A DNA stretch of 64,000 nucleotides from Deltaproteobacteria bacterium (GTDB lineage: Bacteria; Desulfobacterota; GWC2-55-46), in NCBI GenBank assembly GCA_016219015.1, contig JACRCL010000002.1, positions 1 to 64,000 of the forward strand, given 5' to 3'. Each line of letters starts with the position of its first letter. Position 1 is the stretch's first letter. The notes under the pieces were generated by a model, which saw only the letters and a list, made by a program, of their open reading frames with translations, did no database searches and had not been told where the DNA came from. Shown one piece after another: positions 29,149 through 32,087 of this stretch. The translations under genes were made by a program, and so were the position numbers.

Positions 29149-29439
29149 TTACCTGTCCTCGGGGAGCTTGTAGCCCTTGCCAGCGAACTGTACGCCGTCC
29201 GGGTCCTCGCACCTCGGGGGGGATACCGCGTGCACCCCGCCGCACTTGGGGCATTTGCCCACGAAAGTCTTGAGGATAAACGCCTCTCCGCACCCCTGGC
29301 ATTTTGTCTTCAACCCGCCGTCCGGGATTGGCGCGTTCCTCACGCCGCCGCCGTGCGCGTTATAGACGAACTCCACAAGCTCAATACCCTCTGAAAACGG
29401 ACCACCGCCATTCGGCCCGCAGCTTCCGCAATCACCCAT
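29149..29439 (-). CDS. Small zinc-ribbon protein, unknown function
   Basis: This 96-residue protein begins MGDCGSCGPNGGG, a small glycine-cysteine cluster. A central zinc ribbon has the knuckles CQGCGEAF and CPKCGGVHA, with one more cysteine at PPRCEDPDG. The ribosome site AAGGAGG is strong, and a clear terminator follows, so it is a real single-gene unit. The ribbon suggests binding to nucleic acid or a metal-transfer role. I do not recognise the family. Confidence 0.7.
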   Translation of the reverse strand: MGDCGSCGPNGGGPFSEGIELVEFVYNAHGGGVRNAPIPDGGLKTKCQGCGEAFILKTFVGKCPKCGGVHAVSPPRCEDPDGVQFAGKGYKLPEDR

Positions 29440-29634
29440 TGTAAGACCTCCTTCAGATTAAAAATAGGAAAATATCGATAAATATAAGGATACTACAAAT
29501 CCGCACGCGGTTCAAATGCAAATAATAACAGGGTTTAAGGGGCGGGATGGATGATAAATGTCAGATTTGGGGCAAAATCATTATTACATATAGTCTCTGT
29601 AATTATCCCTTATAGAAATCTATACTTCCGGCAC

Positions 29635-29883
29635 ATGGGTAAAAAACAAGCCGCTGACGAAAGATGCCTCGCCCTCGGGCAAAAGATAAAAAAACTGAGG
29701 GAGCTACGAGGTCAGACCCAGGAGGGCCTCGCCGAGAAGGCGGATATTGATACAAGCTACATCGGGCAGATCGAGAGGGGGCTAAGGTATCCTTCTTTAA
29801 AAGTCCTTTTCAGGATAGCAGACGCGCTGAATGTAAAAATTATAGAACTATTTAAGGAAGTCAGTACCCAAAAAGCCAAGTGA
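29635..29883 (+). CDS. XRE-family HTH regulator (controller-type)
   Basis: The protein has 82 residues from ATG 29635; a longer frame from 29551 adds a hydrophobic stretch unlike the family. The helix-turn-helix spans about 15-70: LGQKIKKLRELRGQTQEGLA, then the recognition helix DTSYIGQIERGLRYPS, then LFRIADALNV. Size and layout match the C proteins that control restriction-modification genes. The gene is only 28 nt upstream of the HARE-HTH nuclease-like gene and on the same strand, so it probably regulates it. The DNA here is visibly AT-richer than the surrounding genes. Confidence 0.85.
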   Translation: MGKKQAADERCLALGQKIKKLRELRGQTQEGLAEKADIDTSYIGQIERGLRYPSLKVLFRIADALNVKIIELFKEVSTQKAK

Positions 29884-29911
29884 AGCTATTTCTTGTTGAA
29901 CCGGGTTTGCC

Positions 29912-30646
29912 ATGAAACAGTATGAGGCTGTAATAAAAATTATGGAGGAGAATGGCGGGTTCGCTACTCTTGGCTTTTTAAATCAGAATGTTTTGCGAGT
30001 TGAAGGTTGTGAGTGGAAGACAAAAACCCCTTTTGCAAGTATCCGCCGCATTGTCCAGGATGAGCGTTATTTCTTTAAAGTACGGCCTGGCCTATGGGCA
30101 TTAAAATCCGCTAAAGGTAAACTTCCTCCGGAAATCCTGCCCGCGAAAGGCCAACCAAAGGCACAACAGGAAGAATATTCTCATACCTATTATCAGGGGC
30201 TGATTGTTGAACTTGGGAATTTCAACAAGTATAAGACATTTGTTCCAAATCAGGATAAAAACAGGCTTTATTTGGGCAAGAAACTCTCAGAGATAGCGAC
30301 AGTTCCCAACATAAACAAGTTCAGCTACGATCATATTGTTCGTACAACCCAGACGATAGACGTAACGTGGTTTAACGGAAGAAGTATGCCAGCAAGCCTT
30401 TTTGAGATCGAACATTCGACACCCATGCATAGTTCTTTATTGAAGTTCTTTGAGCTTCAGGATTTTCATGCTAACTTCCGTATAGTCGCCGACGCGGTTA
30501 GAAAAAAAGAGTTTCATGCAAAATTATCTTTGGAGGCTTTTAAGCCGATTTGCAATCGGATTGGGTTTTGGAGTTATGAAGAGGTAGTCGAATTGCATGC
30601 AAAAACAAGCGCAGTTATAAGTGTCGAAGCAAGGCTCGGATTATAA
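29912..30646 (+). CDS. HARE-HTH protein with a restriction-endonuclease-like domain
   Basis: This 244-residue protein has residues 5-65 that form a HARE-HTH winged helix (AVIKIMEENGGFATLGFL ... TPFASIRRIV ... VRPGLWAL), a module fused to restriction enzymes in bacteria and thought to recognise modified DNA. Residues 93-200 look like a PD-(D/E)XK-type core: E100 in an early helix, D150 in QTIDVTWF, then the FEIEHST strand with E165, E167 and H168 where the canonical E-x-K would be. No methyltransferase lies nearby, which fits a modification-dependent (type IV-like) enzyme. The gene is AT-rich and flanked by an XRE regulator and a small acidic protein. Nuclease activity is inferred. Confidence 0.7.
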   Translation: MKQYEAVIKIMEENGGFATLGFLNQNVLRVEGCEWKTKTPFASIRRIVQDERYFFKVRPGLWALKSAKGKLPPEILPAKGQPKAQQEEYSHTYYQGLIVELGNFNKYKTFVPNQDKNRLYLGKKLSEIATVPNINKFSYDHIVRTTQTIDVTWFNGRSMPASLFEIEHSTPMHSSLLKFFELQDFHANFRIVADAVRKKEFHAKLSLEAFKPICNRIGFWSYEEVVELHAKTSAVISVEARLGL

Positions 30647-30661
30647 GGGACTGAGGTAAGA

Positions 30662-30862
30662 ATGGATTTCCCGGTAGACAAATGGGCAAAGGCTATTGCT
30701 GAAAGGCTAAGTGATGAATGGGACGGCAAGGCAGACTTTCCGGAAGATGCCGAGTTGTTGAAGGAGGTTTTAACAAAGGCGCTCAGCGCCGTCCCCGGCG
30801 AGTGCATGCGGTTAGTCGGCAGCGGAGTAATCGAAGAGTCATACTTTGAGCCGCTTGACTAA
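30662..30862 (+). CDS. Small acidic protein downstream of the HARE-HTH gene
   Basis: This 66-residue acidic protein (DFPVDKWAKAIAERLSDEWD ... FEPLD) has no signal peptide, membrane segment or known motif. It starts 15 nt after the HARE-HTH gene; the sequence between has GGGACTGAGGTAAG, a usable ribosome site. Its place as third gene of the island suggests a partner or inhibitor of the nuclease, but this is only positional. It is followed by the convergent dGTPase gene. Confidence 0.6.
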   Translation: MDFPVDKWAKAIAERLSDEWDGKADFPEDAELLKEVLTKALSAVPGECMRLVGSGVIEESYFEPLD

Positions 30863-30905: not shown

Positions 30906-32060
30906 TCACACCTTCTCATACGGGTCAAAGAGCTTTTTGAACTCGTCGAGGGCGAACCTGTCGGTCATGCCCGCTATGTAGTCGCAGACGACCCTGTGCT
31001 TGGCCGATTTTTCAATGAGCGAGTGCACGTGGGGCGGCAGGAGCTTGGGCGCCCTTAAGTACGCCTTGAAAAGCTCCTTTATTATCCTCTCGGCCTTGTC
31101 GGCCATCCTTATGACCCGGTGGTGCCTGTAGAGGTTCTCCCTCAGGAACTTCTTCAACTGCCTGTTCTTCTTCTCCATCTCGGGGCTGAACTGCGCGATG
31201 TTCTTCCCCCGCGCCCTTACGTCCTCTATCGAGGATACGCCCTCGGCCTCGATGGTCTTTGATACCGTCTCGACAAGGTCGGTGACCTGCGCGTTTATTA
31301 TGCTTATGATGGTCTGGTACTTGAGCACCTTCTGGTCCGACTCAGGGTACTGCCCCCTTATCCTCTCGTAGTTCGCCTGCCAGAGCTCGACATTTTTTAA
31401 TTGGGCCGGGTCTAACATCTCTGAAGTGAGCCCGTCGTCTATGTCGTGGTTGTTGTAGGCTATTTCATCAGCTATATCGGCTATTTGCGCCTCCAGGCAG
31501 GGAGACTTGCCGTTCTCGTACTCGTCGTTCAGCTTCGGCCTGTCGTGCTCAGAGTTGTGCTTTACTATCCCCTCCCTTACCTCCCAGGTGAGGTTAAGGC
31601 CCGGAAAGCCGGGGTACCTCTTCTCAAGCTCTTCGACTATCCGCAGGCTGTGCGCGTTATGCTCAAACCCGCCGTGCTCGGACATAAGCTCGTTTAATAC
31701 TGTCTCCCCGGAGTGCCCGAAGGGAGGGTGACCTAAGTCATGGGAAAGCGCGATGGCTTCTGATAAATCTTCATTGAGGGCCAGAGCTCTCGCTATGGTG
31801 CGGGATATCTGGGCTACTTCGATGGTATGCGTAAGGCGGGTCCTGTAATGGTCGCCCTCATGGTAGACGAAAACCTGGGTCTTGTACTCGAGCCGCCTGA
31901 AGGCGTTGCAGTGTATGACCCTGTCCCTGTCCCTCTGGAAGGGGGTCCTGAAGGGGTGTTCCGGCTCTTTGTACCTGCGCCCCCTCGTGGAATTGCTCTT
32001 CGCCGCGTAAGGGGCGAGCCTCTGCGCCTCGATCTCGGAAAAGTTCATATTTTTAGCCAT
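30906..32060 (-). CDS. dgt: Deoxyguanosinetriphosphate triphosphohydrolase-like protein
   Basis: The protein has 384 residues from ATG 32060; a TTG two codons upstream and ATG 32048 are alternatives. It is an HD-domain dNTP triphosphohydrolase: RLTHTIEVAQISRTIA carries the first histidine, HDLGHPPFGHSGE the HD pair, and ADEIAYNNHDIDDG the final aspartate. The early block RRLEYKTQVF is also conserved. It hydrolyses dGTP (or other dNTPs) to the nucleoside and triphosphate. It is divergent from the Slp gene with 33 nt between starts and convergent with the HARE island. Family size and motifs make it a housekeeping enzyme. Confidence 0.92.
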   Translation of the reverse strand: MAKNMNFSEIEAQRLAPYAAKSNSTRGRRYKEPEHPFRTPFQRDRDRVIHCNAFRRLEYKTQVFVYHEGDHYRTRLTHTIEVAQISRTIARALALNEDLSEAIALSHDLGHPPFGHSGETVLNELMSEHGGFEHNAHSLRIVEELEKRYPGFPGLNLTWEVREGIVKHNSEHDRPKLNDEYENGKSPCLEAQIADIADEIAYNNHDIDDGLTSEMLDPAQLKNVELWQANYERIRGQYPESDQKVLKYQTIISIINAQVTDLVETVSKTIEAEGVSSIEDVRARGKNIAQFSPEMEKKNRQLKKFLRENLYRHHRVIRMADKAERIIKELFKAYLRAPKLLPPHVHSLIEKSAKHRVVCDYIAGMTDRFALDEFKKLFDPYEKV

Positions 32061-32087
32061 TGACAAATCCCTAAAGGATAATACAAT
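32060..32087 (+). promoter_or_regulatory. Promoter of the Slp lipoprotein gene
   Basis: TTGACA at 32060-32065 and TACAAT at 32082-32087 are spaced by 16 nt. The ATG at 32094 is only 6 nt after the -10 box, so the mRNA would start at or next to the start codon. Confidence 0.65.

Follow-up and report, generated by a model that had tools for sequence, protein, structure and literature searches.

A winged-helix nuclease, predicted from its structural model, in a restriction hotspot beside a dGTPase gene

Does a restriction nuclease that is accompanied by a controller-like regulator and by no methylase cut DNA because it is modified, or because it is not? The question is raised by a short cassette in the 64,000-nucleotide stretch of deltaproteobacterial DNA analysed here, positions 1 to 64,000 of contig JACRCL010000002.1 (hereafter, the window). 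Few readers of DNA modification have been characterised, and the nuclease of this cassette is widespread, compact, well predicted and directly cloneable. It also bears on the question of which marks, adenine or cytosine, are recognised by winged helices of the HARE type (PMC11037411).

Three ORFs, all on the forward strand (29551-29883, 29912-30646 and 30662-30862), lie between genes of the opposite strand (Table 1), as the original prediction of three short co-directional genes had described. The window as a whole has a GC content of 0.559 and the flanks have 0.54-0.55, but 29551-30862 has 0.438; of 627 sliding 1.3-kb windows, just 2 reach so low a value, and all of these overlap the locus. 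The nuclease gene is the A+T-rich part (GC 0.415), whereas gene 3 is not A+T-rich (GC 0.522, GC3 0.60), so that the A+T excess claimed for the cassette holds for the segment as a whole and fails for its last gene. We take the segment to be, probably, a solitary restriction cassette acquired by horizontal transfer.

Table 1. Coordinates of the cassette, its bordering genes and the predicted functional elements of the nuclease
Feature	Position	Strand	Basis or remark
Zinc-ribbon-like gene, left border of slot	29149..29439	-	Beside the slot also in G003, G006, G015, G026
C-box-like operator TTATTACATATAGTCTCTGTAATTA, 30 bp before probable XRE start	29581..29605	+	18/25 identical to C.Esp1396I OL+spacer oligo
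XRE/C-protein-like transcription regulator, 82 aa	29635..29883	+	Pfam HTH_3 E 1e-15; PADLOC Control_protein E 3e-14
Winged-helix/PD-(D/E)XK-type endonuclease (predicted), 244 aa	29912..30646	+	AlphaFold2 pLDDT 92.3, pTM 0.90
N-terminal winged-helix domain, residues 1-70, HARE-HTH-like	29912..30121	+	VIA-align Z ~6-7
PD-(D/E)XK-type catalytic core, residues 83-244	30158..30643	+	VIA-align Z 5.8-7.8
D150, predicted catalytic residue, directly before strand 151-154	30359..30361	+	Invariant in 26 homologues; position from model
E165-x-E167, predicted E-x-E catalytic motif, end of strand 160-166	30404..30412	+	Conservation in 26 homologues
Gene 3, acidic helical protein, 66 aa	30662..30862	+	Three helices in the model, pLDDT 76
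dGTPase/HD phosphohydrolase gene, right border of slot	30906..32066	-	Pfam HD + HD_assoc; 3' side is the family insertion hotspot

The predicted nuclease and its relatives

In a confident structural model, the 244-residue protein consists of a winged helix joined to a PD-(D/E)XK-type nuclease with an E-x-E site, and the prediction of such a core is thus borne out. Foldseek alone returned no match with E below 1e-3 for this model. A second look at its candidates with VIA-align, in which Z scores below 8 are modest, aligned residues ~80-240 with AF1548 (7.8), N.BspD6I (7.8), BsaWI (7.3), EcoT38I (7.2), FokI (6.5), BstEII (6.2) and BamHI (5.9), with SgrAI also among the core matches (range 5.8-7.8), and these matches are dominated by a single superfamily, PD-(D/E)XK. 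As expected of this fold, the model (pLDDT 92) has D150 near one strand and the E-x-E variant on the next, both placed where the superfamily has its catalytic residues. BamHI likewise uses E-x-E, with E in place of K. Searches of solved structures by sequence gave Cag-Z at best (E 0.39), and none with a 26-row profile, but the PADLOC type II restriction endonuclease family (REase_II) matched residues 100-228 (E 2e-7) and 25 of the 26 homologues.

In the alignment of these 26 homologues, R45, L64, H91, G96, G102, T109, D115, L125, D150, W153, P160, E167, T170, F185 and F201 are invariant. At position 165, E is found in at least 90% of the sequences and D in two divergent members. H168 is not conserved. 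The active site originally placed at FEIEHS therefore stands for D150, E165 and E167, whereas H168 lies outside any conserved motif.

The N-terminal region was expected to be a HARE-HTH domain. The model supports a winged helix, residues 1-70 of which align with FOXN1 (forkhead), Z-alpha domains, the TFIIIC eWH domain and a model of RpoE, which we take to be a HARE-HTH protein, at VIA-align Z ~6-7. The HARE-HTH assignment itself stays below threshold: PF05066 matches residues 5-66 with E 0.0025 and 18.6 bits, against a Pfam cut-off of 25.9, and 12 of the 26 homologues match weakly (best E 7e-4). In HARE-HTH domains, the HTH of the winged helix contains an additional helix (PMC11037411); residues 30-39 of the model form a lower-confidence loop rather than a clear extra helix.

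Homologues that are 43-66% identical span at least six other phyla (Zixibacteria, Bacteroidota, Spirochaetota, Bacillota, Campylobacterota and Pseudomonadota), and one with 49% identity lies on a haloarchaeal (Halobacterium) plasmid. Within the phylum of the window, the nuclease is sparse (7 of 395 genomes at E 1e-20), and no relative was found in the phage records and viral contigs searched. Longer proteins of ~420-450 aa, often annotated as 'type II restriction endonuclease', share only the core. Three plasmid proteins of 420-440 aa (L054:5287-6552, L055:5230-6537 and L056:1434-2693) have the core in common and a different N-terminal part, and two of the three are near metal-resistance-type genes. 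One Treponema copy (L022:5986-6480) is a 164-residue core lacking the winged helix, a natural deletion of the reader. In genome G004, a remnant of the nuclease N-terminus (L052:3468-3596; 58% identical, with internal stops) lies in a housekeeping region, and an intact copy is present on another contig.

A restriction hotspot and the genes that accompany the nuclease

We read the sequence on the 3' side of the dGTPase gene in the 25 genomes of the family that have this gene. This side is a restriction hotspot at which DpnI, the present nuclease and restriction-modification (R-M) pairs are exchanged. The slot is empty in G003, with 143 bp between the zinc-ribbon gene and the dGTPase gene. It holds the present nuclease in the window genome (G000) and in G026, where the gene is frameshifted; DpnI (PF06044) in four genomes (G011, G020, G006 and G015); a methylase with a MutH-related nuclease in three (G016, identified with Pfam, and G024 and G028, assigned by sequence resemblance); a methylase with a weak PDDEXK_11 nuclease in G021 and G027 (the methylase Pfam-checked in G021); and a PIN gene in G009. 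In G022, DpnI is ~1.8 kb from the dGTPase gene. Thus, the R-M-type cassettes (five genomes) contain a methylase, whereas those of DpnI (four) and of the present nuclease (two) do not. The left flanks of the slot are mostly A+T-rich (GC 0.38-0.47; 0.53-0.55 in G006 and G015), compared with 0.53-0.62 for the dGTPase genes. Because ordinary R-M pairs occupy the slot too, sharing it does not by itself demonstrate the same chemistry. In G020 (L072/L042), a HicAB-like pair, assigned to this family by eye, separates the dGTPase gene from gene 3; beyond it lies an 81-bp copy of the dGTPase 3' end, 94% identical, as if an insertion had duplicated the end of the gene.

Gene 3 matched no known family in Pfam and PADLOC searches, DpnD/PcfM (PF14207) included. 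Among the 63 genomes of the class that were searched, its homologues, 80-85% identical, occur only in G011, G020 and G026. All four copies are at the slot, two beside the present nuclease (window and G026), two beside DpnI (G011 and G020) and none beside an R-M pair. Put differently, gene 3 is present in 4 of the 6 slots in which DpnI or this nuclease adjoins the dGTPase gene and in 0 of the 19 others (hypergeometric P ~0.001, calculated by hand and optimistic given shared ancestry). Its restriction to the family and its host-like composition indicate that it was probably not brought in together with the nuclease. That leaves a local accessory or a passenger; as an accessory or regulator, it might serve whichever modification-dependent nuclease fills the slot. 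If the present nuclease does cut methylated DNA, one slot would be a place where such enzymes alternate with ordinary R-M pairs and gene 3 stays with the former only, a pattern that makes the role of DpnD-like accessory genes testable.

Small genes accompany the nuclease elsewhere as well. Another small gene, SM2, adjoins DpnI in G011 and G015 and immediately follows the nuclease in L003 and G209, and in L004 the nuclease is followed by a DpnD/PcfM (PF14207) gene. In 17 of 32 copies, a short ORF in the same direction begins no more than 30 bp from the nuclease stop, which holds for 32 of 169 control ORFs (P 1.7e-4, a value that treats related copies as independent and draws on controls that include spurious ORFs). 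Across loci, these genes are mostly unrelated to one another. At L012 (923-2221), 154 bp downstream of the nuclease, lies a methylase with an N-terminal DpnD/PcfM domain (PF14207, E 8e-12), which ties DpnD-like domains to methylation.

The regulator was predicted to resemble the controller (C) proteins of R-M systems, and it does: the closest solved structure is C.AhdI (E 3e-9), and C.BclI and C.Esp1396I are among its further matches. Its gene probably starts at the ATG at 29635 rather than at 29551, given that 82 residues is the size of a C protein and that, in the longer ORF, the HTH match falls at residues 46-100. Upstream, TTATTACATATAGTCTCTGTAATTA is the top-scoring C-box site on both strands of the whole window, equalled in 1 of 1000 dinucleotide shuffles; the query was the C.Esp1396I operator (PMC3758141), in which the printed 25OL oligo is one letter short of its stated length and was completed with C. 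The site is embedded in an inverted repeat, ATTATTACA/TGTAATTAT, at 29580-29606, and the OR half of the operator is degenerate. A small XRE protein and a predicted C-box operator upstream of its own gene are what marks a C protein, and such a regulator would bind the C-box in its own promoter and thereby delay or limit expression of the nuclease. None of the other nuclease loci studied has such a gene, which makes the predicted C-control a local addition. We accordingly abandoned the idea that the three genes form a conserved cassette: the XRE gene was found only at the window locus, and gene 3, far from being a constant partner of this nuclease, also accompanies DpnI at this slot.

Methylases and the mode of restriction

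The claim that the cassette lacks a methyltransferase is upheld by tblastn, which found none within 10 kb of the window nuclease. The linked cognate methylase of a type II R-M system is therefore missing, and in this the locus agrees with type IV systems. Searches of the window genome for methylases of the N6/N4, C5 and D12 classes found four, one and none, respectively. One each is paired with a BglII-like, an XhoI and a type III nuclease (the last recognised by eye), and the C5 methylase has HNH and, as judged by eye, Vsr-like genes beside it. The fifth is an orphan N6/N4 methylase on contig C8 (L097:3839-5272), matched in 25 of 30 family genomes and ~60-80% identical in most of them; such a distribution argues against a dedicated partner of the nuclease, and we consider it a candidate epigenetic regulator.

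Methylases around the homologues were counted by tblastn (the motif [DNS]PP[YFW] misses some of them). Among ~34 distinct nuclease loci, an apparently intact methylase lies within 5 kb in seven (L005, L011, L012, L013, L015, L021 and L050), and remnants or frameshifted genes in six (L006, L007, L008, L016, L108 and L109); L019 is ambiguous, L014 has a weak distant fragment only, and the remaining loci, some with short flanks, have none. In the tree clade of the window nuclease, no locus has an intact methylase nearby, two have remnants, and G026 has none intact. In three Lachnospiraceae loci, a methylase lies downstream of the nuclease (L011:7116-8039), and its N-terminal stretch is winged-helix-like in appearance; the L011 type is possibly a genuine R-M pair within the nuclease family.

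In one Treponema clade of nucleases (support 100/100), the D12 methylase gene directly upstream of the nuclease is complete in L005, carries a frameshift in L008, has shrunk to 66 and 54 matching residues in L006 and L007, respectively, and is missing from L009; these genomes have no second close D12 copy. The nuclease is intact in all these loci, with dN/dS of 0.03-0.05 for L007, L008 and L009 (dS is near saturation for two of the three pairs), and by this measure is under purifying selection where the methylase is broken or lost. A nuclease that attacks unmodified DNA should not persist once its methylase is gone, and the pattern thus counts for modification dependence. It is not specific to this nuclease: in L006, the methylase remnant is likewise accompanied by an intact AlwI-type enzyme. 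At L005 (4971-10260), a 5.3-kb restriction cluster comprises the D12 methylase, the present nuclease, a small gene, an AlwI-type nuclease, DpnI and a further methylase.

We consider it probable, though well short of firm, that the cassette nuclease is a modification-dependent (type IV-like) restriction enzyme, DpnI-like in its working and outside the DpnI family. Given that it has no partner methylase and occupies a slot where relatives carry DpnI or R-M pairs, it probably destroys wrongly marked invading DNA. Its N-terminal winged helix would read the modification, a methyl group or another altered base, and the core, presumably metal-dependent through D150, E165 and E167, would cut the modified foreign DNA, as DpnI and other modification-dependent enzymes do. 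Under this proposal, host DNA would not carry the mark and no protective methylase would be needed. The missing methylase and the pattern of slot use and methylase loss thus favour the modification-dependent defence first suggested for this locus, with the exception of its three-gene unit.

The main competing explanation, which we judge rather unlikely, is an ordinary type II enzyme that cuts unmodified DNA, with its methylase in trans, for example the contig C8 orphan or an undetected one. C proteins usually belong to R-M systems with a methylase, which counts against modification dependence, and the C-box-like site, the type II core recognised by PADLOC, the annotation of the long relatives and the intact methylases beside several homologues favour the same explanation. 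The seven loci with an apparently intact methylase suggest that some members of the family could be ordinary R-M enzymes. Against the type II explanation for the window copy, the methylases detected in the window genome are paired with other nucleases or are family-wide, the clade of the window nuclease has no intact neighbouring methylases, and the Treponema copies persist beside broken ones.

A toxin-like or abortive module, in which the XRE repressor or gene 3 keeps the nuclease off until infection releases it and no modification is read, would fit the repressor-like gene directly upstream, the frequency of small genes after the nuclease and the PIN gene at the slot of G009. We find it improbable, because the XRE gene occurs at no other nuclease locus studied and most of the small genes after the nuclease are unrelated to one another, so that there is no constant antitoxin; a constant toxin-antitoxin partner was rejected on account of this diversity. 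It is very improbable that the cassette is a decaying or inactive remnant of a former R-M system: the frameshift in G026, the N-terminal fragment in G004 and the origin of the data in metagenome-assembled genomes are compatible with decay, but the ORF and active-site residues of the window copy are intact and its close relatives have low dN/dS. The modification-dependent reading therefore remains our preferred one. Its furthest extension is tentative and rather doubtful: a modification-dependent restriction family that combines an N-terminal winged-helix reader with an E-x-E nuclease, that in the window is controlled by an R-M-type C protein in spite of lacking a methylase, and whose accompanying small protein, interchangeable between this nuclease and DpnI, would be a shared accessory of methyl-dependent restriction.

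Relation to known restriction systems

HARE-HTH domains were reportedly found fused to restriction endonucleases by Aravind and Iyer in 2012. Fusions of this type have been described and proposed to discriminate modified DNA (PMC10853773; PMC12839542), and the PD-(D/E)XK-winged-helix enzymes DpnI, FcyTI and Psp4BI are 6mA-dependent type IV nucleases (PMC11037411); the window nuclease is accordingly no new kind. Like the HARE fusions, it joins a HARE-like helix-turn-helix to a restriction endonuclease domain, but its HARE match is sub-threshold, and it stands alone with a C protein rather than in a Dnd or BREX locus. With DpnI-type enzymes it shares a PD-(D/E)XK-type nuclease and a winged helix in ~250 aa, the usual lack of a methylase and a small accessory gene nearby; 87% of their winged-helix fusions have no adjacent methylase, and some adjacent methylases are inactivated by frameshifts (PMC11037411). 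Sister genomes have DpnI itself at this chromosomal position, and both nucleases are accompanied by gene 3 and by the SM2-type small gene. The two differ in that the winged helix is N-terminal in the window nuclease and C-terminal in DpnI, and in that the window nuclease has an E-x-E site, its own C-protein-like regulator and no match to PF06044 (catalytic domain) or PF17726 (C-terminal HTH), the profiles of the DpnI family, which the intact slot-sharing DpnI proteins match at E ~1e-56 or better.

A slot shared by DpnI, R-M pairs and a winged-helix nuclease, a small gene common to its occupants and a C protein on a methylase-less nuclease appear to be unreported in the accessible literature. 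As in the C-protein-controlled type II systems Esp1396I, AhdI and PvuII, the C gene lies upstream of the nuclease gene, in the same direction, and a C-box-like operator is present; unlike them, the cassette has no methylase gene and the second operator half is degenerate. The closest parallel to the slot itself is in Streptococcus pneumoniae, where DpnI and DpnII cassettes are exchanged at one chromosomal site (PMC3573125, citing Lacks 1986): in both cases, alternative restriction cassettes succeed one another at a single position, but here at least four cassette types do so, beside a dGTPase gene and in an unrelated lineage.
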